Below are positions 41,509 through 50,648 of a stretch of 64,000 nucleotides of DNA, one piece after another (the first letter of the stretch is position 1; the number at the start of each line of letters is the position of its first letter). A program made the position numbers and the translations under genes. The stretch comes from Rhodospirillaceae bacterium (GTDB lineage: Bacteria; Pseudomonadota; Alphaproteobacteria; Bin65), in NCBI GenBank assembly GCA_028819475.1, contig JAPPLJ010000039.1, positions 1 through 64,000 of the forward strand, given 5' to 3'. The notes under the pieces were generated by a model, which worked only from the letters and a program-made list of their open reading frames with translations, made no database searches and was not told the origin of the DNA.

Positions 41509-41534
41509 CTTGATCCGCGGCGGTTCGCCCGGCA
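41509..41534 (+). repeat. 26-bp direct repeat, copy A
   Basis: The 26 bases starting CTTGATCCGCGGCGGTTC are repeated exactly and in the same orientation at 50623-50648. The two copies bracket the caspase-like/OmpA/protease cluster and element 2. Probably an intergenic repeat family, possibly the scar of an insertion. Confidence 0.7.
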
Positions 41535-41549
41535 CTTTGCTTGGACGAT

Positions 41550-41640
41550 GTTCGGCCCGACCCACTGCCCGACGGCGCGTCATGGTACCAGTCGTGCCAA
41601 CAGTCCTTCACCCATTCATGAACATTGCCTGAGGAGGTGA
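41550..41640 (-). pseudogene. Relic of a formylglycine-generating-enzyme (SUMF1) type domain
   Basis: Read on the reverse strand, this stretch encodes SGNVHEWVKDCWHDWYHDAP, unmistakably the GNVWEWxxDCWHxxYxxAP block of the FGE-sulfatase domain family. No complete domain or start surrounds it, and the frame differs from that of the caspase-like gene ending at 41670. It is taken as the remains of a gene or of the lost C-terminal part of the neighbouring protein. Extent is approximate. Confidence 0.7.
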
Positions 41641-41669
41641 GATTCTCGATGGGGCCACAGCCGAGATTC

Positions 41670-43241
41670 TTAGCAAGATGGTCGTTTCCCTTCCCGCCAC
41701 ATACCTTCGCAGCGATTACCTGACGGCCAGGTGTAGATTCCGTGACCGTGCATTTTGCCTTCCCGCCATTCCCCTTCGTAGCGATCGCCTCTAGCCCAAC
41801 GGTAGGTGCCGCGACCATGGTACTTGCCGCCGCGCAATTCGCCCGTGTAGATGTCCTGCCCGAAGCTTCCCCGCCAGACCAACCGACCGCTCCCCGAGGC
41901 TTTGCTGTCCACGCAACCGCCCGTCCAAGTGGCGGTTGAGCCCGGATGCGGCGCCTGATTCCACACCTTGCAGGGCCGGTTCCGCAGTTTCTGCCAGATC
42001 GAACCGGAATGGTTGGGCGCCGCTGCACGCAACGTCCTTGCCGAAGCAGCGTCCAGAAACCCCGTCGCCGGCCTGCTTCGGAATTCCTGCCACTCTCTGA
42101 TCGCCTTGCGCGTGCGGTCTCCAAACACGCCGTCCGGCACGCCCGGATCGAAGCCCAGGACCCACAGGCCGGTCTGGACCTTCTTTCGGTCCCGCGCCGT
42201 CAGGTTCAGGGCCGCCTCCGCCGCTTCGGACGCGAACGCGTTCCGGGCGTCGGTCAGGTCCTTCAGGCGATTGCGCGCCAACGCGGCGAAGGTGCCCTGC
42301 GGGTAACGGTCGAGATAGGCCCGGAGATCCGCCGGCCGATCCCGGTCCCTGACCGATTCCCAGAATAGGCGCTCCGCAGCGAGCTGTTCCGCGGTCAGCC
42401 GGTGCGCCGCCGCGCCGCCGCCCTTGGGCGGAACGGCCGGTTTCGCCTGTGTCGGCGCCGGCGGCTTCGGCCGGGCGCCCAGATACGCGCCCTTGCTCGA
42501 CAGGGAGCCGTAGACGAAGGGCTCCTGCTTGTTGCCGGTCGTCTTCAGCACCGCGTCGCGCACCTTGCGGAACATCAGCCCGACCTCAAGGCCCGGCTCC
42601 TCCAGATGGGCCAGCAGGGCCCGGGTGTAGGGGCTGTTGCGGCCCGCGCCGTCCGAGGCCAGCGTGCCTTCCTTCGCGGCATAGGCCACCAGCATCTCGC
42701 CCGACGGCTCGACCCGCGCCAGGCCCCGGCCGATCGAGCGTTTCGCGCCGGCGCGCCGCATCGAGGCCGCAAAGGGATTGTCCCGGCAGGCGTCCAGGAT
42801 GACCAGGCCGAGGCCCGAAGCGCCCTCGACGGCCCGGCCGACTAGGTCGAGCGGCACCGTCTCGAACTCGACCTCCCGGTCGCTCAGCAGGCGAGCGTCG
42901 ACCGGCACCAGGAAGTTGCGCTTGTCGACCTCGATGCCGTGGCCGGCATAGAACACCACGGCGGTTTCGGCGGTCGAGGCGGCGCGCGAGAAGTGCAGCA
43001 GCCCGCGCTCCAGGGCGACCTTGCCGGCATTCTCCAGCTTCGTGACCGCGAACCCCAGCCGGCCGAGCGCGGCGCCGATGTCGCCGGCATCGTTGAGCGG
43101 GTTGGCCAGCTGCGGCGCATGGGCGTAGACCGCGTTGCCGATCACCAGCGCGACCCGCTTGGCGGCTTGCGCCGGGGCTGAAAGCGCCAGCGCCGGCAGC
43201 AGAAGGGCGGCGAACAGTGAGGGAAAGGGTCTCATCGTCAT
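41670..43241 (-). CDS. Caspase-fold protease with peptidoglycan-binding-like and MORN segments
   Basis: 523 aa. Signal peptide (PSLFAALLLPALALSAPAQA), then a caspase-like (peptidase C14) domain: KRVALVIGNAVYAHAPQLANPLNDAGDI, His101 in FYAGHGIEVD and Cys152 in LDACRDNPF. From about residue 360 a helical region ends in a peptidoglycan-binding_1-like block (VQTGLWVLGFDPGVPDGVFGDRTRKAIREWQ), followed by two to three MORN repeats (YHGRGTYRWARGDRYEGEWREG). The end after KRPSC is abrupt, so C-terminal repeats may have been lost. ATG 43241 follows GAGGAGG by nine bases. Paralogue of the next gene upstream. Confidence 0.88.
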   Translation of the reverse strand: MTMRPFPSLFAALLLPALALSAPAQAAKRVALVIGNAVYAHAPQLANPLNDAGDIGAALGRLGFAVTKLENAGKVALERGLLHFSRAASTAETAVVFYAGHGIEVDKRNFLVPVDARLLSDREVEFETVPLDLVGRAVEGASGLGLVILDACRDNPFAASMRRAGAKRSIGRGLARVEPSGEMLVAYAAKEGTLASDGAGRNSPYTRALLAHLEEPGLEVGLMFRKVRDAVLKTTGNKQEPFVYGSLSSKGAYLGARPKPPAPTQAKPAVPPKGGGAAAHRLTAEQLAAERLFWESVRDRDRPADLRAYLDRYPQGTFAALARNRLKDLTDARNAFASEAAEAALNLTARDRKKVQTGLWVLGFDPGVPDGVFGDRTRKAIREWQEFRSRPATGFLDAASARTLRAAAPNHSGSIWQKLRNRPCKVWNQAPHPGSTATWTGGCVDSKASGSGRLVWRGSFGQDIYTGELRGGKYHGRGTYRWARGDRYEGEWREGKMHGHGIYTWPSGNRCEGMWREGKRPSC

Positions 43242-43309
43242 CGTTTTCAGCCTCCTCTCCGTCCCGCAGTGCCGCAGGCCGTCGCCATTTTTCCCGGCAC
43301 TACCGTCGC

Positions 43310-45616
43310 CTATTTGAACCCGCAGGCTTTCTTCGAATTGCCCCAGGTAAACCACCCACGATATCCTCCCGTATTGTAGCTGTAACAGCCGTTAATCGCC
43401 CTGCCCGTGGCTCTTCTCTTGCCGGACTTGTCGAAATAAACTCCCCTGCCGTGGGCCTTTCCGTCTTTGAATTCGCCTTGATATCGCGCGCCATCGGAAA
43501 AATAACCTGTCCCTCGGCCGTGTTCTTTATTGTCCTTCCACCCGCCTTCGTAGCGGCTACCGCTCTTCCATGTATTGGTGCCCCGACCGTGCCGATTGCC
43601 GTCTAGAAATTCACCTTCGTAGCGGTCGCCATTCTTCCATATGTACGTACCGCGGCCGGTTAGCTTTCCCTTCCGGAATTCACCCTCGTAGCGGTCGCCG
43701 TCCTTCCATGTGAAAGTCCCGCGGCCGTGCATCTGGCCGTCCTTCCAGCCTCCCTCGTAACGGTTGCCGGCCGGCCAGGTACGGGTGCCGCGGCCATGTT
43801 TCTTGCCGTTCAGATATTCGCCTTCGTAACGATTGTTGTTAGAAAAAACTTCGACTCCGTGACCGCGAACAAATCCGCCGCCCCGCCATTCGCCCTCGAA
43901 ACGCGTGCCGTTAGGCCAGATCTTTTTTCCCCGGCCGTGCGGCTCTCCATCCTGCCATTCACCGTCGTACCGTACGCCGGCCGGCGATTTGATGATGCCG
44001 CGATCCGGCATTCTGCCGTTGACCCATTCGGCCTCGTAGCGGCGGCCGTCGTGCGAGATGTGAGCGCCTTTTCCGTGCCGCTTGCCGTCCTTCCACTCGC
44101 CTTCGTACCTGGTCCCGTCGGCCGATCTGGCGGTGCCCTGTCCGTGCTGCGCTCCGTCGCGCCACTCGCCCTCATAGCTGGCGCCATCGGCCCAGAAGGC
44201 CTTGCCAGTGCCGTGCTTCCGGCCGGCGCGATACTGGCCGTCGTAAGTCTCCTCGCTCTGCCCGGTCTTCCAGACGGTGCGGCCCTCGCCTGAAGCCCTG
44301 CCGCCCTCGCAGGCGCCCGACCAGGTCACCGTCTCGCCCGGCTGCGGGCCGGGGTTCCACAATTTGCAGGGAGCGTTCGTGGCGGTCGCCCAGACGCCGC
44401 CGGACAGGTCCGGCGCAATGCCGAGCAGGGTCTTCGCGTCCTCGATACCGAGATAGCCGGTCGAGGGCCGGCCCAGCGCGGCCTGCCACTTGCCGATCGC
44501 CGCCCGCGTCGTCTTGTCGAAGAACAGCCCGCCTCGGTCGCCCGGATCGAAGCCGGAGGCCCACAGGGCGGTCTGGATGCGCTGGCGCTCGCCGCGTTTG
44601 AGGCCGAGCGCCGCTTCGGCCGCCGCCGGATCGTCAACGTCCCGCGCCTGCGGGTCCCTGAGCCGCGCGATCCGGTTGCGCGCCAGGGACGCGAACACGC
44701 CGTCGGGATATTGCTCCAGGTAGGCTTCGAGGTCCGCCGGGTCGCGGCTGCCCTTGACCGAGTGCCAGAACAGCGATTCCTTGTCCTTGACGACGATCCC
44801 GCTCCCGCCGCCGGGCGCCACGGTCCCCGGCCCCGGCGCGGACCTTGCCGCCAGGTAGAATCCCTTGCTCGACAGGGAGCCGTAGACGAACGGCTCCTGT
44901 TGTCCGCCGGTGGTTCTGAGCACCGCGTCGCGCACCTTGCGGAACATCAGGCCGACCTCGAGCCCCGGCTGCTCCAGATGGGCCAGCAGGGCCGTGCTGT
45001 AGGGGCTGTTGCGGCCCGCGCCGTCGGCCGCCACCGAGCCGCCCTTGGCGGCATAGGCGACCAGGGTCTCGCCCGCCGGTTCGACCCGCGCCAGGCCGCG
45101 CCCGATCGAGCGCGTCGCGCCGGCGCGCGTCATTGCCTTGGCGAACGGATTGTCCCGGCAGGCGTCGAGCACGATCAGGCGCAATTCCGAGGCCCGGTCG
45201 ACCGAGCGGGAAACCAGGTCGAGCGGCACCGCCTCGAATTCCACGTCCTGGTCGCTCGCCAGGCGCGCATCGACCGGGATCAGGTAGTTGCGCCCGTCGA
45301 CCTCGATGCCGTGGCCGGCGTAGAAGACCATGGCGATCTCGGACATTGCCGCGGCCCGGGTGAAGGCCCGCAGGCCCTTGCGCATCGCATCGTAGCCGGC
45401 ATTGTCGAGCCGGGTGACCGCGAAACCGAGCCGGCCCAGCGCAGCGCCGATATCGGCCGCGTCGTTGAGCGGATTGGCGAGCCGCGACGCATGTTTGTAT
45501 TCGGCATTGCCGATCACCAGCGCAACGCGCTTTGCGGCCTGCGCAGGGCTGACTAAGGCTAGCGACAGCAACAGCGCAGCCGCGCACTGCCCGGCAATCT
45601 GTTTGCGGACGTTCAT
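43310..45616 (-). CDS. Caspase-fold protease with about a dozen MORN repeats
   Basis: 768 aa, paralogue of the neighbour at 41670. Signal peptide ending SPAQA, then a C14 caspase-like domain with His102 (FYAGHGIEVDGRNYLIP) and Cys153 (LDACRDNPF). A peptidoglycan-binding-like block comes next (IQTALWASGFDPGDRGGLFFDKTTRAAIGKWQ), then about twelve MORN repeats of the form GRGTxTWxxGxRYEGEWxxGxxH. A Cys-containing tail (NGCYSYNTGGYRGWF) ends the protein. ATG 45616 has a GGAGGAGGAG box directly upstream. Exported caspase-fold proteins of bacteria are generally of unknown role; MORN arrays usually bind membranes or other proteins. Confidence 0.9.
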   Translation of the reverse strand: MNVRKQIAGQCAAALLLSLALVSPAQAAKRVALVIGNAEYKHASRLANPLNDAADIGAALGRLGFAVTRLDNAGYDAMRKGLRAFTRAAAMSEIAMVFYAGHGIEVDGRNYLIPVDARLASDQDVEFEAVPLDLVSRSVDRASELRLIVLDACRDNPFAKAMTRAGATRSIGRGLARVEPAGETLVAYAAKGGSVAADGAGRNSPYSTALLAHLEQPGLEVGLMFRKVRDAVLRTTGGQQEPFVYGSLSSKGFYLAARSAPGPGTVAPGGGSGIVVKDKESLFWHSVKGSRDPADLEAYLEQYPDGVFASLARNRIARLRDPQARDVDDPAAAEAALGLKRGERQRIQTALWASGFDPGDRGGLFFDKTTRAAIGKWQAALGRPSTGYLGIEDAKTLLGIAPDLSGGVWATATNAPCKLWNPGPQPGETVTWSGACEGGRASGEGRTVWKTGQSEETYDGQYRAGRKHGTGKAFWADGASYEGEWRDGAQHGQGTARSADGTRYEGEWKDGKRHGKGAHISHDGRRYEAEWVNGRMPDRGIIKSPAGVRYDGEWQDGEPHGRGKKIWPNGTRFEGEWRGGGFVRGHGVEVFSNNNRYEGEYLNGKKHGRGTRTWPAGNRYEGGWKDGQMHGRGTFTWKDGDRYEGEFRKGKLTGRGTYIWKNGDRYEGEFLDGNRHGRGTNTWKSGSRYEGGWKDNKEHGRGTGYFSDGARYQGEFKDGKAHGRGVYFDKSGKRRATGRAINGCYSYNTGGYRGWFTWGNSKKACGFK

Positions 45617-45706
45617 CTCCTCCTCCTCTCCGCGGCCCCAGCGCCCTTTTCGACGGGCGTTTCTCGCACCGCGTTACCCGGTTCGGCGCGCCGGATCGGC
45701 CGGCCG

Positions 45707-46264
45707 TCACGGCGTGTGCGTGACGTTGCGGATCTCGACGCGCCGGTTGATCGCGGCTTCGGGGTCGTTCGGGTCCAGCAGCTGGCGCTCGCCCATGCCC
45801 TTCCAGCTGATCAGCGAACTGTCGAGCGCGAATTTGCGCACGATGTAGCCGACCACGGCGGCGGCCCGCCGGTCGGACAGGGCGTCGTTGTATTCCAGCG
45901 TGCCTTTCGCGTCTGTATGGCCGACGATCTCGATGGCCTGGCCCTTCAGCGCCTCGTTGGAGAGCGCCCGACCGAGCACGTCGAGGGTCAGCATGGAGTC
46001 GTTGTCGAGCCGGGCCGAATCGAAGGCGAAGGTCACCTTGAGGTCGATCGACGGCACCGGGCGTTTCTCCTCGCCGGTGACGGTCACGCCCCGCTTGCCG
46101 AAGCTGCGCGTCGTGCTGAAGCTGCGGGCCTTGGCCGGCCGCTTGGTCAGCGCCTCGATGATCTCCGTTTCGGTCCGCCGCGACTGGCTCTCGGCAGCGG
46201 GGGCGAGTGCGGCGCCCGTTATCGCCGTAAGAGCGACGGATAAGGCGATGCAGGATGTCTTCAT
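45707..46264 (-). CDS. OmpA family protein
   Basis: 185 aa. Signal peptide (LSVALTAITGAALAPAAES), a short linker, then an OmpA C-terminal peptidoglycan-associating domain: VTFAFDSARLD, IEIVGHTDAKGTLEYNDALSDRRAAAVVGYIV and INRRVEIRNV. The histidine-aspartate-arginine pattern for diaminopimelate binding is intact. It sits between the caspase-like genes and the papain-like protease gene, all on the reverse strand with short gaps, pointing to a common periplasmic system. Confidence 0.9.
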   Translation of the reverse strand: MKTSCIALSVALTAITGAALAPAAESQSRRTETEIIEALTKRPAKARSFSTTRSFGKRGVTVTGEEKRPVPSIDLKVTFAFDSARLDNDSMLTLDVLGRALSNEALKGQAIEIVGHTDAKGTLEYNDALSDRRAAAVVGYIVRKFALDSSLISWKGMGERQLLDPNDPEAAINRRVEIRNVTHTP

Positions 46265-46268
46265 GGGT

Positions 46269-47825
46269 CTACTCTCCCTGTTTCGTCTCCAGGGCGACGA
46301 AGGCGGCGCCGACGACCCGCTCCGGCCGGGTCGGGTCGGGCCGGGCGACGATGGCGCGGCGCAGCGCGGTCAGGAATTCGCGCTCGGTCTCGATCAGCGG
46401 CCGCTTGCCGGCGAACAGCGGGCTGCGCGACGCAATGGCCACAACCATTTCCTTGCCAAAAGGCGCGGAGACAGTGAATTTCGGCCTTCCCTCCCGCCCG
46501 TCGCCGAAGGCCAGTGCGGTCCGGGCCGGCCAGGTCCTGAGCGTCACCGGATCGGAGCGGACCAGGTTGACCACCTTGCCGTCGGCCTGGACATAGGCGA
46601 CGTGCAGATAGCCCTGGAAGCCGGCCATCCTGACTCCGAAGCTCAGGGTCTCGCCGGCCCGGTAGGCGCGCTTCGGCAGGGCGATGATCGGCCGGCTCGT
46701 GTGGGCCAGCGGCTTCGCCAGGGTCATCAGGGTCTCGCATTGCGGCCACGGCCGCAGCGCAACGGCGACCTGCGCGTTGGCCTGTGCCGCCGCCCGGCGC
46801 ACCTTGGCGAGATCGTCCTTCGCGCCGACGAAGCCGATGACGGCCGGCTTGCCGTTCCTCGTCGCGACCCTGAGCCGGCCGCAGGAAACCGCCGGCAACC
46901 GGATTGTCTGCACGGCCGGCGGCGGCTTGGGTTTGGGCGGCGCGGGTTTTGCCGCGAGGCGCATGGCGAAGCCGTATTTCACCCGCCGCCGGAAGGTATC
47001 GTAGCCGATCCGGCCGAAACCGCGCTCGCCCCAGCGCCGGCCCCAGGAGTTGACGACCTTGAAATAGCGGCCGCGTTCCGAGTAACCGACGACGGTCACG
47101 GCATGGCCGTCCTGCCGGAGATCGACCGGACCGGCGCGCCAGACGCGCCGGCCGCGCAGCCGGTGGAACGCCCGGTCCGGCACCATGCCGATCACCACCG
47201 GATGGCCCTTGGCCAGTTCGGCCTTGACCTGGTCGGGGCGGCCGGTATCGACCCGCAGCCAGCCGGCGATGCGGAACCGGGTGGCGCGCGCGACGGTCCC
47301 CGGCCCCGGCCGGCGGCAGCGCCGCGGACCGTAGGGATAGGTGGCCCAGGAGACCGCGCCGTTCTTCAGCAGGTTGAGGGCGTCGCTGATCCGGCTGCCG
47401 GTATCGCAGCCGGCGCCCGGCCGGCGGATCGTATCGTAGATGAAGGCTGGGCTGGGAATCCGGTCGGCGCCCAGGCGCCCGCCGCCGCCGGGCGTGCTGT
47501 TATAGTAGGAGCGGGCGGCATAGCCGACCGCCCAGCCGACGCAGGAGCCCTGTCTGCCCTGGTGGCCCGCGGGCGGAAAGCGGTGGCTCAGATCGATCCG
47601 TTCGGGCAGGAACGCCCGGAACGTCCGGGTCTGCGGCCGTTTCGCCAGCGCCGCCGGGTCTTCCGGCAATGCGCCGGTGGCATAGACTGTGTCTTCCGGG
47701 TCCGGCTGCTCCTGGGCTCGCGCGGTCTGTGTCACGGCGGCGAGAGCCAGCGCAATCGCTCCCGTCAGGACAACGCCGAAGGGAGCAATCGCAAACCCGC
47801 CAATTTTATCGCAGTGGGGCCTCAT
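46269..47825 (-). CDS. Papain-like (C1 family) cysteine protease, exported
   Basis: 518 aa. Hydrophobic N-terminal signal (GVVLTGAIALALAAVTQTARA). The catalytic Cys95 lies in RQGSCVGWAVGYAARSYY, His241 in DGHAVTVVGY and Asn259 in KVVNSWGRRWGERGF, so the papain triad is complete. The C-terminal 170 residues contain a segment (KRAYRAGETLSFGVRMAGFQGYLHVAYVQADGKVVNLV) that looks like the DUF4384 domain often found with bacterial caspase-like proteins. ATG 47825 is chosen as the last good start before element 2, which inserted only 42 bp upstream and must have replaced the native promoter region. Stop is 4 bp from the OmpA-like gene start. Confidence 0.88.
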   Translation of the reverse strand: MRPHCDKIGGFAIAPFGVVLTGAIALALAAVTQTARAQEQPDPEDTVYATGALPEDPAALAKRPQTRTFRAFLPERIDLSHRFPPAGHQGRQGSCVGWAVGYAARSYYNSTPGGGGRLGADRIPSPAFIYDTIRRPGAGCDTGSRISDALNLLKNGAVSWATYPYGPRRCRRPGPGTVARATRFRIAGWLRVDTGRPDQVKAELAKGHPVVIGMVPDRAFHRLRGRRVWRAGPVDLRQDGHAVTVVGYSERGRYFKVVNSWGRRWGERGFGRIGYDTFRRRVKYGFAMRLAAKPAPPKPKPPPAVQTIRLPAVSCGRLRVATRNGKPAVIGFVGAKDDLAKVRRAAAQANAQVAVALRPWPQCETLMTLAKPLAHTSRPIIALPKRAYRAGETLSFGVRMAGFQGYLHVAYVQADGKVVNLVRSDPVTLRTWPARTALAFGDGREGRPKFTVSAPFGKEMVVAIASRSPLFAGKRPLIETEREFLTALRRAIVARPDPTRPERVVGAAFVALETKQGE

Positions 47826-47859
47826 ATTGACAGAATATTGCTGAATCACCGATTTATAA

Positions 47860-47867
47860 ATTTTTTT
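47860..47867 (+). repeat. Target-site duplication, left copy (ATTTTTTT)
   Basis: Eight bases ATTTTTTT before the left end of element 2 recur at 50524-50531 after the right end. Confidence 0.9.
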
Positions 47868-47889
47868 CGGAATAAGTAGATAGGGGCTT
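47868..47889 (+). repeat. Left terminal inverted repeat, element 2
   Basis: Starts CGGAATAAGTAGATAGGG and is identical to the reverse complement of 50502-50523 over 22 bp. Confidence 0.93.
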
Positions 47890-47915
47890 GAAATATCCCC
47901 GTCAATCCCTATATT
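47888..47915 (+). promoter_or_regulatory. Transposase promoter, element 2
   Basis: TTGAAA (47888-47893) and TATATT (47910-47915) are 16 bp apart, the first box overlapping the inner end of the terminal repeat. The CCCTATATT string matches the promoter of element 1. TCCCT just ahead of the -10 box can pair with AGGGA of the ribosome-binding site at 47923-47927. Confidence 0.6.
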
Positions 47916-47936
47916 CAGAGTACAGGGAGAGACGCC

Positions 47937-48815
47937 ATGAACCTCATCACCATCTTCCAACGCTACCCGGATCAGGAAGCTTGCATTGAGCATATGGAGC
48001 GCGTGCGCTGGGGCGACGAAGCCCATTGCCCGCACTGCGGTTCCGTCAAGGTCGCCCGCAAGGCGGAGCGGTACAGGGTAGGCCGCTGGAATTGCCACGA
48101 TTGCAAGGCCAGCTTCAACGTCCTGTCCGGGACCATCTTCGAAAAGACGAAAATCCCGCTGCAAAAGTGGTTCATGGCTATCGGGATCATGGTCAACGCC
48201 AAAAAGAGCGTTTCCAGTTTCCAGTTGTCCCGCGATCTCGACATGAACCAAAAATCGGCATGGTACATGCAACAGCGTATCCGGGCCGCGATGGCCGCGG
48301 ATCAAGGCCCGCTGCTTCAAGGGATTGTCGAGGCGGATGAAACCTACGTCGGCGGCAAGCCCCGGAAGCCGAACCGCCGCGACGACGACGGGCCGGGCAA
48401 GCCGCGCGGTCGCGGAACATCCAAGACTCCGGTTGTCGGCGCTGTAGAGCGCGGCGGCCGGGCCGTTGCCCGCATTGCCGATGGGCTGGACGGCAAAAGC
48501 CTTCTGCGGTTCCTGAAACAGAATGTCGATCCGGTCGGAACGCTCCTGATTACCGACGAATGGAAGGGCTACAAGCCGGTCCGTAAAGCCTACCAGCACG
48601 CCGTTATCAAGCACTCCGAAGCCTACGCCGACGGCGACACGCACACGAACACCATTGAAGGCGTTTGGGCGCTCCTGAAGCGGGCGCGGTACGGGCAGCA
48701 CCATCATTACACCCGCCACTGGATGCCTCTGTTCATTGCCGAAGCGGTCTGGAAATACAATCACCGAAAGACGGACAGGGGCTTCGATATGTTCATGCGG
48801 AGTTGCTTCGCATGA
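47937..48815 (+). CDS. IS1595-family (ISXO2-like) transposase
   Basis: 292 aa. Zinc ribbon with Cys31/Cys34 (CPHCGS) and Cys53/Cys56 (CHDC). Catalytic triad positions are Asp134 in VEADETYVGG, Asp207 in LLITDEWKGY and Glu241 in TNTIEGVWALLKR. It is closer to the common ISXO2 form than the transposase of element 1. Intact, with AGGGAGA about nine bases before ATG 47937. TGA overlaps the methyltransferase start. Confidence 0.95.
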   Translation: MNLITIFQRYPDQEACIEHMERVRWGDEAHCPHCGSVKVARKAERYRVGRWNCHDCKASFNVLSGTIFEKTKIPLQKWFMAIGIMVNAKKSVSSFQLSRDLDMNQKSAWYMQQRIRAAMAADQGPLLQGIVEADETYVGGKPRKPNRRDDDGPGKPRGRGTSKTPVVGAVERGGRAVARIADGLDGKSLLRFLKQNVDPVGTLLITDEWKGYKPVRKAYQHAVIKHSEAYADGDTHTNTIEGVWALLKRARYGQHHHYTRHWMPLFIAEAVWKYNHRKTDRGFDMFMRSCFA

Positions 48816-50497
48816 ACCGCCTCTATTACGGCGACTGCCTCACCGTCATGCAGGAAATGTCGCTCGGCAGTGTGGATCTGATCTATCTCGATCCGCCGTT
48901 CCAATCGAACCGCGATTACAACGCCATCTATCAGGACGAAACCGGCCGTCCTCTGCCCGATCAAATCGAAGCGTTTTGCGATACATGGACTCTGGATGCA
49001 GACCGGGAGCGCGCCATCCGCGCCATGCCGGTGCTGATGCGCGAACATGGGATCGAAGACGAAATCGCGGAGTTCTGGCGCTTGTGGATGAACGCGCTAC
49101 GCAAGACGAACCCGCGGCTTCTGGCGTATCTGTCCTACATGGTGCAGCGGCTATTACCCATGCGCGGCCTGTTGAAGCCGACCGGAAGCCTGTACCTTCA
49201 CTGCGATCCGACCGCCAGTCACTACATCAAAGTGATGCTTGACGGGCTGTTCGGGCATGAGAATTTTCGGAATGAAATTGTCTGGCGGCGCACCGGCGCG
49301 CATGGCCGCGCGAAAAGATGGGGACCAATTCACGATACGCTTTTGTTTTACAGCCGAGGAAAAAAGTACACATGGAATCGCGTTTTTGAAGCCTATGATC
49401 CCGAATACATTGAGAACTTTTACCGCTTCAAAGATGACCATGACCGCTATCGTCTTGTGACGCTTGATGGCCCTGGGACCAGGAAAGGCGATTCCGGGCA
49501 ACCGTGGCGAGGGGTAAATCCGACCGATAAGGGGCGGCATTGGGAATTGCCGCCGGATCGCGCATTGCCAGACTGGTTCGATTTTCCCGAAGGCTATTCC
49601 GGCATGACAATTCAAGAGCGTCTTGATGTTCTTGATGCAGCCGGCCTGATTTACTGGCCGCCGCGTGGGTCCGTTCCGCAGTACAAACGCTATCTGTCCG
49701 TGTCTGCGGGCAACCCGGTTCAAGATATTGTCTCGGATATTAGGCCCATAGGATCGCAGGCCAAAGAGCGGCTCGGCTACAACACACAAAAGCCGATAGA
49801 ACTTCTAGAGCGGATCATCGCGGCCAGCTCGAATCCCGGCGACGTGGTATTCGATCCGTTCTGCGGGTGCGCCACGACGCTTGAAGCGGCGCACCGCCTC
49901 GGCCGGCGCTGGATCGGAATCGACATTGCCATTCACGCCATAAAGCGCGTGGCCAAAATACGGCTGGAAGAGCGGTTGAAGCTGGTCGAGGGAACCGACT
50001 TCACGATTGACGGTGTCCCGCGCAACCTCGAAGGCGCGCGCGACCTGTGGACCCGCGACAAGTACCATTTCCAGAAATGGGCAGTCGAGGAAGTGGACGG
50101 CTTCGTTACGACCCGCCGCGGCAGCGACGGCGGTATCGACGGGCGGCTCTACTTCGCCATGCCGCAGACCAGCCCCACGGCGCGCGATCCGCTCCGCTCA
50201 ATGGTGATTGAAGTGAAAGGCGGCAAGAACGTCGGTATCGGCGTTGTGCGCGACCTGCGCGGCGTCCTGGAGCGTGAGGAAGCCGAGATGGCAGGGCTGA
50301 TAGTCATGGACGATCCCGGCCCGCGCAAGCGCGCCAATTTCGAGCGGGAGATGGCCGCGGCTGGCGATCTCGACGTGTTCGGAACGCTCTATCCCCGGAT
50401 GCAGCTTTTGACGGTCGAGGAAATTATCGGCGGCGCACGCTTCAACACGCCGGGAGCGGTCGGAAAAGGTGCTGGACAAGCCGCCCTTGCTGTGTGA
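48812..50497 (+). CDS. DNA methyltransferase fused to PD-(D/E)XK (Mrr-like) nuclease
   Basis: 561 aa. The methyltransferase part has catalytic DPPF at 27-30 (YLDPPFQSNRDYN), HCDPTASHYIK at 130-140, YNTQKP, and the AdoMet motif DPFCGCATT at 348-356: an amino-methyltransferase of the same beta-type as that of element 1. From about residue 410 there is a separate domain: KYHFQKWAVEEVDGF, then SDGGIDGRLYF with Asp443, and MVIEVKGGKN with Glu467 and Lys469. This is the D-x(n)-E-x-K core of an Mrr-like restriction nuclease. Methylation and cleavage would reside in one polypeptide, carried by an insertion sequence and coupled to its transposase by ATGA at 48812. Confidence 0.9.
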   Translation: MNRLYYGDCLTVMQEMSLGSVDLIYLDPPFQSNRDYNAIYQDETGRPLPDQIEAFCDTWTLDADRERAIRAMPVLMREHGIEDEIAEFWRLWMNALRKTNPRLLAYLSYMVQRLLPMRGLLKPTGSLYLHCDPTASHYIKVMLDGLFGHENFRNEIVWRRTGAHGRAKRWGPIHDTLLFYSRGKKYTWNRVFEAYDPEYIENFYRFKDDHDRYRLVTLDGPGTRKGDSGQPWRGVNPTDKGRHWELPPDRALPDWFDFPEGYSGMTIQERLDVLDAAGLIYWPPRGSVPQYKRYLSVSAGNPVQDIVSDIRPIGSQAKERLGYNTQKPIELLERIIAASSNPGDVVFDPFCGCATTLEAAHRLGRRWIGIDIAIHAIKRVAKIRLEERLKLVEGTDFTIDGVPRNLEGARDLWTRDKYHFQKWAVEEVDGFVTTRRGSDGGIDGRLYFAMPQTSPTARDPLRSMVIEVKGGKNVGIGVVRDLRGVLEREEAEMAGLIVMDDPGPRKRANFEREMAAAGDLDVFGTLYPRMQLLTVEEIIGGARFNTPGAVGKGAGQAALAV

Positions 50498-50501
50498 TAT
50501 T

Positions 50502-50523
50502 AAGCCCCTATCTACTTATTCCG
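50502..50523 (-). repeat. Right terminal inverted repeat, element 2
   Basis: Exact inverted copy of 47868-47889, ending CTTATTCCG before the duplicated ATTTTTTT at 50524-50531. Confidence 0.93.
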
Positions 50524-50531
50524 ATTTTTTT
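50524..50531 (+). repeat. Target-site duplication, right copy (ATTTTTTT)
   Basis: Matches 47860-47867. The tract continues as a longer T run, so insertion was into an AT-rich spot upstream of the protease gene. Confidence 0.9.
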
Positions 50532-50622
50532 TTATAATTAGGAAACATTATGGCACTAGCAAGATTTTGGTGTGGCGGCCGGTCCCTCCGGGACCAAGAC
50601 CCGCAGCGTTCGCCCGGCACGT

Positions 50623-50648
50623 CTTGATCCGCGGCGGTTCGCCCGGCA
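50623..50648 (+). repeat. 26-bp direct repeat, copy B
   Basis: Exact copy of 41509-41534 in the same orientation. It lies in the 283-bp gene-free gap after element 2, which otherwise shows only a small GGTCCC/GGGACC hairpin at 50581-50595. Confidence 0.7.

Follow-up and report, generated by a model that had tools for sequence, protein, structure and literature searches.

The closest described relatives of the system considered here are the bacterial orthocaspases or "metacaspases" (MEROPS C14B; PMC3501461, PMC6426788), which share a C14 fold, a His–Cys dyad, and acidic S1 residues and which are found fused to peptidoglycan (PG)-binding, MORN, WD40, TPR, or FGE domains. Asplund-Samuelsson and co-workers counted bacterial fusions of C14 to PG-binding, FGE, WD40, or TPR domains and, among C14 operons, 14 with OmpA and 23 with other proteolysis domains (PMC3501461); MORN fusions are listed in PMC4933709. 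The portions of PMC3501461 and PMC6426788 consulted here give aggregate counts and do not describe an exported unit of papain–DUF4384, OmpA, and C14 proteins, its conservation, or its mobility. The locus analyzed in this work appears to be such a unit. It lies in a 64,000-nucleotide stretch of DNA (hereafter, the window) from a Rhodospirillaceae bacterium (contig JAPPLJ010000039.1, assembly GCA_028819475.1) and encodes a papain-like protease (PAP), an OmpA-like protein, and two C14 proteins (CASP-B and CASP-A). We favor the reading, at a probability of about 0.6, that this cluster is a horizontally mobile two-protease module of the cell envelope. Because caspase–papain pairing recurs side by side in very distant bacteria, the same protease partnership is probably a real, undescribed working unit.

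Other described proteins resemble parts of the cluster. The secreted Bradyrhizobium protein A5ECX2 (PMC3355149) likewise has a signal peptide, a C14 domain, and a proposed peptidoglycan-binding C terminus, but it is a single protein with YARHG where the cluster has PG_binding_1 and MORN, and the consulted part of that paper describes no papain or OmpA partner. Alphaproteobacterial proteins with trypsin, pseudo-orthocaspase (QC dyad), and DUF4384 parts (PMC6426788) likewise combine a caspase fold with a second protease type and DUF4384. As presented in the consulted text, however, they have an inactive dyad and a trypsin-like partner in one polypeptide, whereas the cluster has an intact dyad and a separately encoded papain-like partner. 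Xylellain (3OIS), a bacterial papain-like protease, shares the papain domain, to which PAP adds a two-cysteine domain and DUF4384. The paracaspase MALT1 is the closest solved fold to the cluster C14 proteins and has the same Arg-type pocket Asp residues, but the C14 proteins have no death or Ig domains, are predicted to be exported, and carry PG-binding and MORN domains instead. Full-text literature searches, with subscription papers and preprints outside their scope, returned no description of a papain–OmpA–C14 module in the text that was accessible. Because none of the texts cited, in the parts consulted, describes such a unit, the module is best called a variant of the envelope-directed orthocaspase systems, distinguished by its dedicated papain partner.

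The four genes and their products

The cluster consists of four intact, consecutive open reading frames (ORFs) on the minus strand (41670–47825; Table 1). Each product begins with a hydrophobic segment and an AxA-like site that by a simple heuristic fits a Sec signal peptide, as a sequence-only reading of this DNA had proposed. The order of transcription is PAP, OmpA-like, CASP-B, CASP-A, the gaps measuring 4 bp from PAP to the OmpA-like gene, 90 bp from there to CASP-B, and 68 bp from CASP-B to CASP-A. Because these gaps are short, the four genes likely form an operon. All four proteins are, as judged from their sequences, apparently exported to the cell envelope.

PAP (P0004) matches Peptidase_C1 (1.9e-12) and DUF4384 (2e-8) in Pfam. 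The complete papain triad that had been read from the sequence is present (C95/H241/N259), together with the oxyanion residue Q89, and all four residues are invariant columns in an alignment of 38 papain homologues reaching down to ~20% identity. The AlphaFold2 (AF2) model of PAP is best matched by xylellain 3ois (Z 28.9, root mean square deviation (rmsd) 2.4 over 233, 27% identity). By Pfam, alignment, and model, PAP thus has the Gln–Cys–His–Asn site and the fold of papain family C1. The two-cysteine domain follows the protease and is itself followed by DUF4384; an NCBIfam search gave no equivalog for PAP. The C-terminal part of PAP, made up of the two-cysteine domain with its WPQC motif and DUF4384, recurs at another locus (L060:9763–11541) in fusion with a Ser/Thr protein kinase domain.

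The OmpA-like protein (P0003; Pfam OmpA, 2e-18) has D118 and R132 in place, the diaminopimelate (DAP)-binding Asp and the Arg of peptidoglycan-associated OmpA domains, which agrees with the peptidoglycan anchor proposed for it. A lipobox was not seen in this protein, whose start resembles an ordinary signal peptide.

CASP-B (P0002) and CASP-A (P0001) are paralogues with 62% identity. In Pfam, CASP-B matches Peptidase_C14 (3.4e-35), PG_binding_1 (1.8e-5), and 10 MORN stretches above threshold, and CASP-A matches the same two domains (7e-33 and 3.2e-11) and two such stretches. Both have the dyad as H102/C153, so that the two intact caspase-like centers with a peptidoglycan-binding block and MORN repeats are real features of the cluster. 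A C14/p20 domain with a His–Cys dyad makes both proteins orthocaspase-like (Peptidase_C14B). As to a separate p10 domain, the Pfam C14 model alone was applied, and its match spans 229 of 233 positions. H102, C153, D52, and D151 are invariant across the 13 C14 domains compared, taken from the window and from related loci, in keeping with the expectation that the caspase center would be conserved among homologues. The top match to the C14 profile is human MALT1 (E 1.6e-25), whose catalytic and pocket motifs align, and the predicted structure of CASP-B is best matched by MALT1 3uo8 (Z 26.1, rmsd 2.9 over 216). Pfam found no Ig domain N-terminal to C14, which starts directly after the signal peptide, and the proteins therefore fall outside the MALT1-family paracaspases. 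They also score well below the cut-off of the EACC1-associated caspase model NF047832 (47.8 and 52.4 bits versus 140). A longer form of CASP-A from a GTG at 43355 was rejected because it would run into CASP-B and because the ATG at 43241 has a ribosome-binding-like GGAGAGGAGG ahead of it.

The ratio of nonsynonymous to synonymous substitution (dN/dS) is about 0.17–0.30 for PAP and OmpA pairs and, with the L105/L108 pair left out because its stretch was out of frame, 0.18–0.39 for C14 pairs. The values for C14 and PAP (about 0.17–0.39) point to purifying selection and thus to maintenance of the protease parts.

Recurrence of the papain–C14 pair

A search of public genome contigs with PAP yielded 67 papain-homologue loci (1.02 Mb). 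In all 11 of the other full-length PAP–DUF4384 loci (L098–L108, 45–66% identity), PAP has an OmpA gene and one or more C14 genes next to it, so the expectation that these gene families would be found together in other genomes held. The carriers, metagenome-assembled genomes (MAGs) and isolates, are labeled Nitrospinota, Candidatus Binatia, Deltaproteobacteria, Alphaproteobacteria, Rhizobiaceae, Boseongicola, and Reyranella, and the genes flanking the module are not common to L098–L107. The form of the C14 partner varies: it has PG_binding and MORN in sponge-type loci, SH3 and WD40 in Flavimaribacter, SH3 in Boseongicola and Rhizobiaceae MAGs, and FGE and TPR in Reyranella, and a further form has an N-terminal region to which Pfam assigns no name. 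In 16 Bacteroidota loci, mostly of Saprospiraceae and Chitinophagales, a C14 gene directly adjoins a papain that is 20–27% identical to PAP; in most of them the partner has ~1000 amino acids, begins like a signal peptide, and carries C14 at the C terminus. Overall, C14 lies within 2.5 kb of the papain in 28 of the 67 loci, and only four C14 matches occur elsewhere in the flanks, all in two loci that also hold an adjacent C14. Thus, the constant core of the module is papain plus C14, to which OmpA is added in proteobacterial and sponge-type loci. The idea of a four-gene unit stands for that core and not for the set as a whole, as OmpA and the accessory domain of C14 vary.

The Bacteroidota loci also bear on a different reading, in which the two proteases would carry out a housekeeping task with no signaling, namely trimming large exported adhesins or outer-membrane proteins or releasing them. 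Genes for SprB-repeat/CHU_C giant proteins secreted by the type IX route, for PorP/SprF, or for both follow the pair in many of the 16 loci, and OmpA is the constant neighbor in the other loci. However, no such large surface protein is found beside the cluster in the window or beside its nearest relatives. Because SprB/PorP pairs are common in Bacteroidota, this linkage may be incidental, and a patchy, transferred distribution would be unusual for housekeeping. Surface-protein maturation is the best of the alternatives, and an unlikely one.

The insertion that carries the cluster

The reading of the cluster as a mobile module draws on its setting. In congeners (blastn against L078–L083), a DctP-type gene adjoins an AI-2E transporter gene, whereas 9.1 kb separate the two in the window. 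This insertion is bounded by a perfect 26-bp direct repeat, whose two copies are the only ones in the genome when up to 3 mismatches are allowed; at the empty site of the congeners, the 26-bp sequence is single-copy and exact or nearly so. Between the repeats lie the four-gene module, a piece of an FGE domain, and an IS1595 element that carries a methyltransferase gene. Searches of six congeners and four confamilial genomes found no PAP, and full-length PAP is present in 1 of 385 genomes of the class, the window's own. The bacterium gained the cluster as one block of 9.1 kb, and recently.

In a maximum-likelihood tree of PAP, the window's protein forms one clade (support 97/96) with those of an alphaproteobacterial MAG and of Binatota/Myxococcota-labeled and Nitrospinota MAGs; the PAPs of Rhizobiaceae, Reyranella, and Boseongicola fall outside this clade. 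The nearest relatives of the cluster are thus found in MAGs assigned to other phyla. One of the related MAGs, bin107 (MPNJ), came from the sponge Aplysina aerophoba (PMC5649159), and we infer a sponge origin for the others from isolate names. Plasmid and phage collections held only protease-domain homologues of PAP; because these are below 60% identity and no record covers 80% of the query, no carrier plasmid or phage was found. No integrase was seen among the ORFs of the insertion.

The IS1595 element, the only full-length copy in the genome, lies 42 bp upstream of the PAP start codon. It has an ISXO2-like transposase (47937–48815), inverted ends, and an 8-bp target duplication (ATTTTTTT; 47860–47867 and 50524–50531), and its passenger gene (48812–50497) encodes an N6/N4 DNA methyltransferase with a weak Mrr-like C-terminal domain. 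A promoter-like match, TTGACG-17 nt-TATCTA, points from the end of the element to PAP (47870–47915, minus strand); it is weak (8/12) and not in the promoter scan output. Because this match reads out of the element toward PAP, the element might now drive the cluster.

Table 1. Positions in the window of the cluster genes and of the insertion around them.
Feature	Position	Strand	Evidence
PAP, papain-like (C1) cysteine protease with C-terminal DUF4384	46269..47825	-	Pfam, invariant residues, AF2 model
PAP signal-peptide-like N terminus, residues 1–38, ...TARA/QEQ cut	47712..47825	-	Heuristic and sequence
OmpA-like protein, C-terminal OmpA domain, signal-peptide-like start	45707..46264	-	Pfam, D118/R132
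CASP-B, Peptidase_C14 (orthocaspase-like), PG_binding_1, ~10 MORN	43310..45616	-	Pfam, alignments, model
CASP-A, Peptidase_C14, PG_binding_1, 2 MORN, cap-less C terminus	41670..43241	-	Pfam, alignment
FGE-sulfatase (SUMF1-like) domain relic	41552..41632	-	Pfam PF03781, E 0.0024 (below cut-off)
Left 26-bp direct repeat CTTGATCCGCGGCGGTTCGCCCGGCA	41509..41534	.	Bounds insertion
Right 26-bp direct repeat	50623..50648	.	Bounds insertion
Inserted segment (island)	41535..50622	.	blastn vs congeners L078–L083
IS1595-family element	47868..50523	+	Inverted ends, 8-bp target duplication

The presence on the insertion of a mobile element with a methyltransferase would also suit a conflict module, in which the cluster would serve envelope defense or self-killing against phage, contact-delivered effectors, or host factors, with C14 as executor and the repeats as sensors. 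The patchy distribution of a horizontally moved cassette and the interchangeable arms on C14 fit this picture as well, and caspase-fold proteins act in prokaryotic conflict systems (PMC7159879). PADLOC, however, yields only a weak "caspase" match to C14 (E 1e-4 to 6e-4), fold-level MotB/ZorB matches to the OmpA domain, and no match to PAP; as these matches are weak or fold-level only, a defense-system assignment by PADLOC was set aside. The cluster also has no toxin–immunity pair or ATPase switch. To our knowledge, the known defense caspases act in the cytoplasm, unlike the cluster proteins, which look exported. We consider a conflict role even less probable than surface-protein maturation. 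That the genes are coincidental cargo, traveling together without functional coupling, would agree with a mobile module in which one C14 copy is partly eroded but is very improbable, given that the pairing recurs with different flanks in Bacteroidota at 20–27% papain identity and that C14 hardly ever turns up at other places in these flanks.

A putative protease partnership at the cell wall

For the two-protease module that we favor, the following scheme can be proposed. Once exported by the Sec route, the proteins would be tethered to the peptidoglycan through the OmpA and PG_binding_1 domains. The MORN part of C14, whose place is taken at other loci by WD40, TPR, SH3, or FGE, would form an exchangeable arm for recognition or scaffolding. 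D52 and D151 align with the two acidic S1-pocket Asp positions of MALT1, and such pocket Asp residues of MALT1 and the orthocaspases favor a basic P1 residue. Because these residues are kept and the p20–p10 linker of C14 is Arg-rich, C14 would be predicted to cut after Arg or Lys. PAP and C14 may then act in one pathway, in which one activates the other or both process the same envelope or surface substrates, and their action would start once a wall or envelope signal arrives.

The periplasmic proteolytic system envisaged in the sequence-only reading thus stands as a conserved, co-transferred module, on the strength of cross-phylum neighborhoods, invariant sites, purifying selection, and domains that fit the envelope; the data speak neither for nor against the roles suggested for it in envelope stress, interbacterial competition, or cell-death signaling. 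A bolder and tentative proposal, which we think possible rather than probable, is that the module represents a previously unnamed class of extracytoplasmic protease cascade, a cross-phylum cassette in which a papain and an orthocaspase with an exchangeable sensing arm work outside the cytoplasmic membrane. We know of no caspase-fold cascade shown to work there. Bacterial caspase homologues are numerous and nearly all lack a known pathway; the conserved, separable pairing with a papain whose active site is intact would give a caspase-fold protease a defined partner and a compartment, the cell wall instead of the cytoplasm. Cultured carriers such as Flavilitoribacter nigricans DSM 23189 (L126) and Flavimaribacter sediminis (L104) allow its role to be tested.

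Several observations weigh against the envelope module as we read it. The signal peptides are predicted by the hydrophobicity and AxA heuristic alone, the cleavage preference of C14 comes from an alignment, and transfer of the module between phyla, although likely from the sequences, depends partly on correct binning of the MAGs. Viewed from the C14 side, papain is missing from all 27 C14 loci taken from other genomes of the class, and OmpA is present at one; because the link is rare from this side, the papain subfamily marks the module better. The Bacteroidota papain–C14 pairs and locus L109 have no OmpA. More distant papain homologues have no C14 neighbor, among them the other Bacteroidota ones at L138, L148, L150, and L159–L161 despite long flanks. 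The C14 gene of L101 looks broken. Within the window, alignment shows that CASP-A is without the conserved C-terminal cap (...NGCF...ACGFK) of CASP-B and its relatives. Right behind CASP-A lies the FGE fragment, with 58% identity over 26 amino acids to the C14–FGE protein of the Reyranella papain locus. Because the cap is missing and this fragment follows, the end of CASP-A looks rearranged. The fragment is probably left from a third, C14–FGE gene, and the simplest reading is a deletion that removed most of that gene and the end of CASP-A.

Related arrangements were seen at other loci. The papain loci of Henriciella/Hyphomonadaceae (L110–L116), which share a conserved neighborhood, were placed outside the module, as they have no C14 neighbor and the papain of L110, the one scanned among them, has a pYEATS tail in place of DUF4384. 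At L109 (7–3340), CsgG-like, C14, and papain genes stand in a row with no OmpA, and the contig ends there. At L085 (8568–11648), an OmpA gene directly precedes a C14–FGE gene with no papain, an arrangement that may represent a sibling module. Two small genes precede the papain–C14 pair in L128, L139, L143, L144, and L147 (Chitinophagales/Saprospiraceae-type loci), and those of L128 encode an extracytoplasmic function (ECF)-type sigma factor and a TPR protein.

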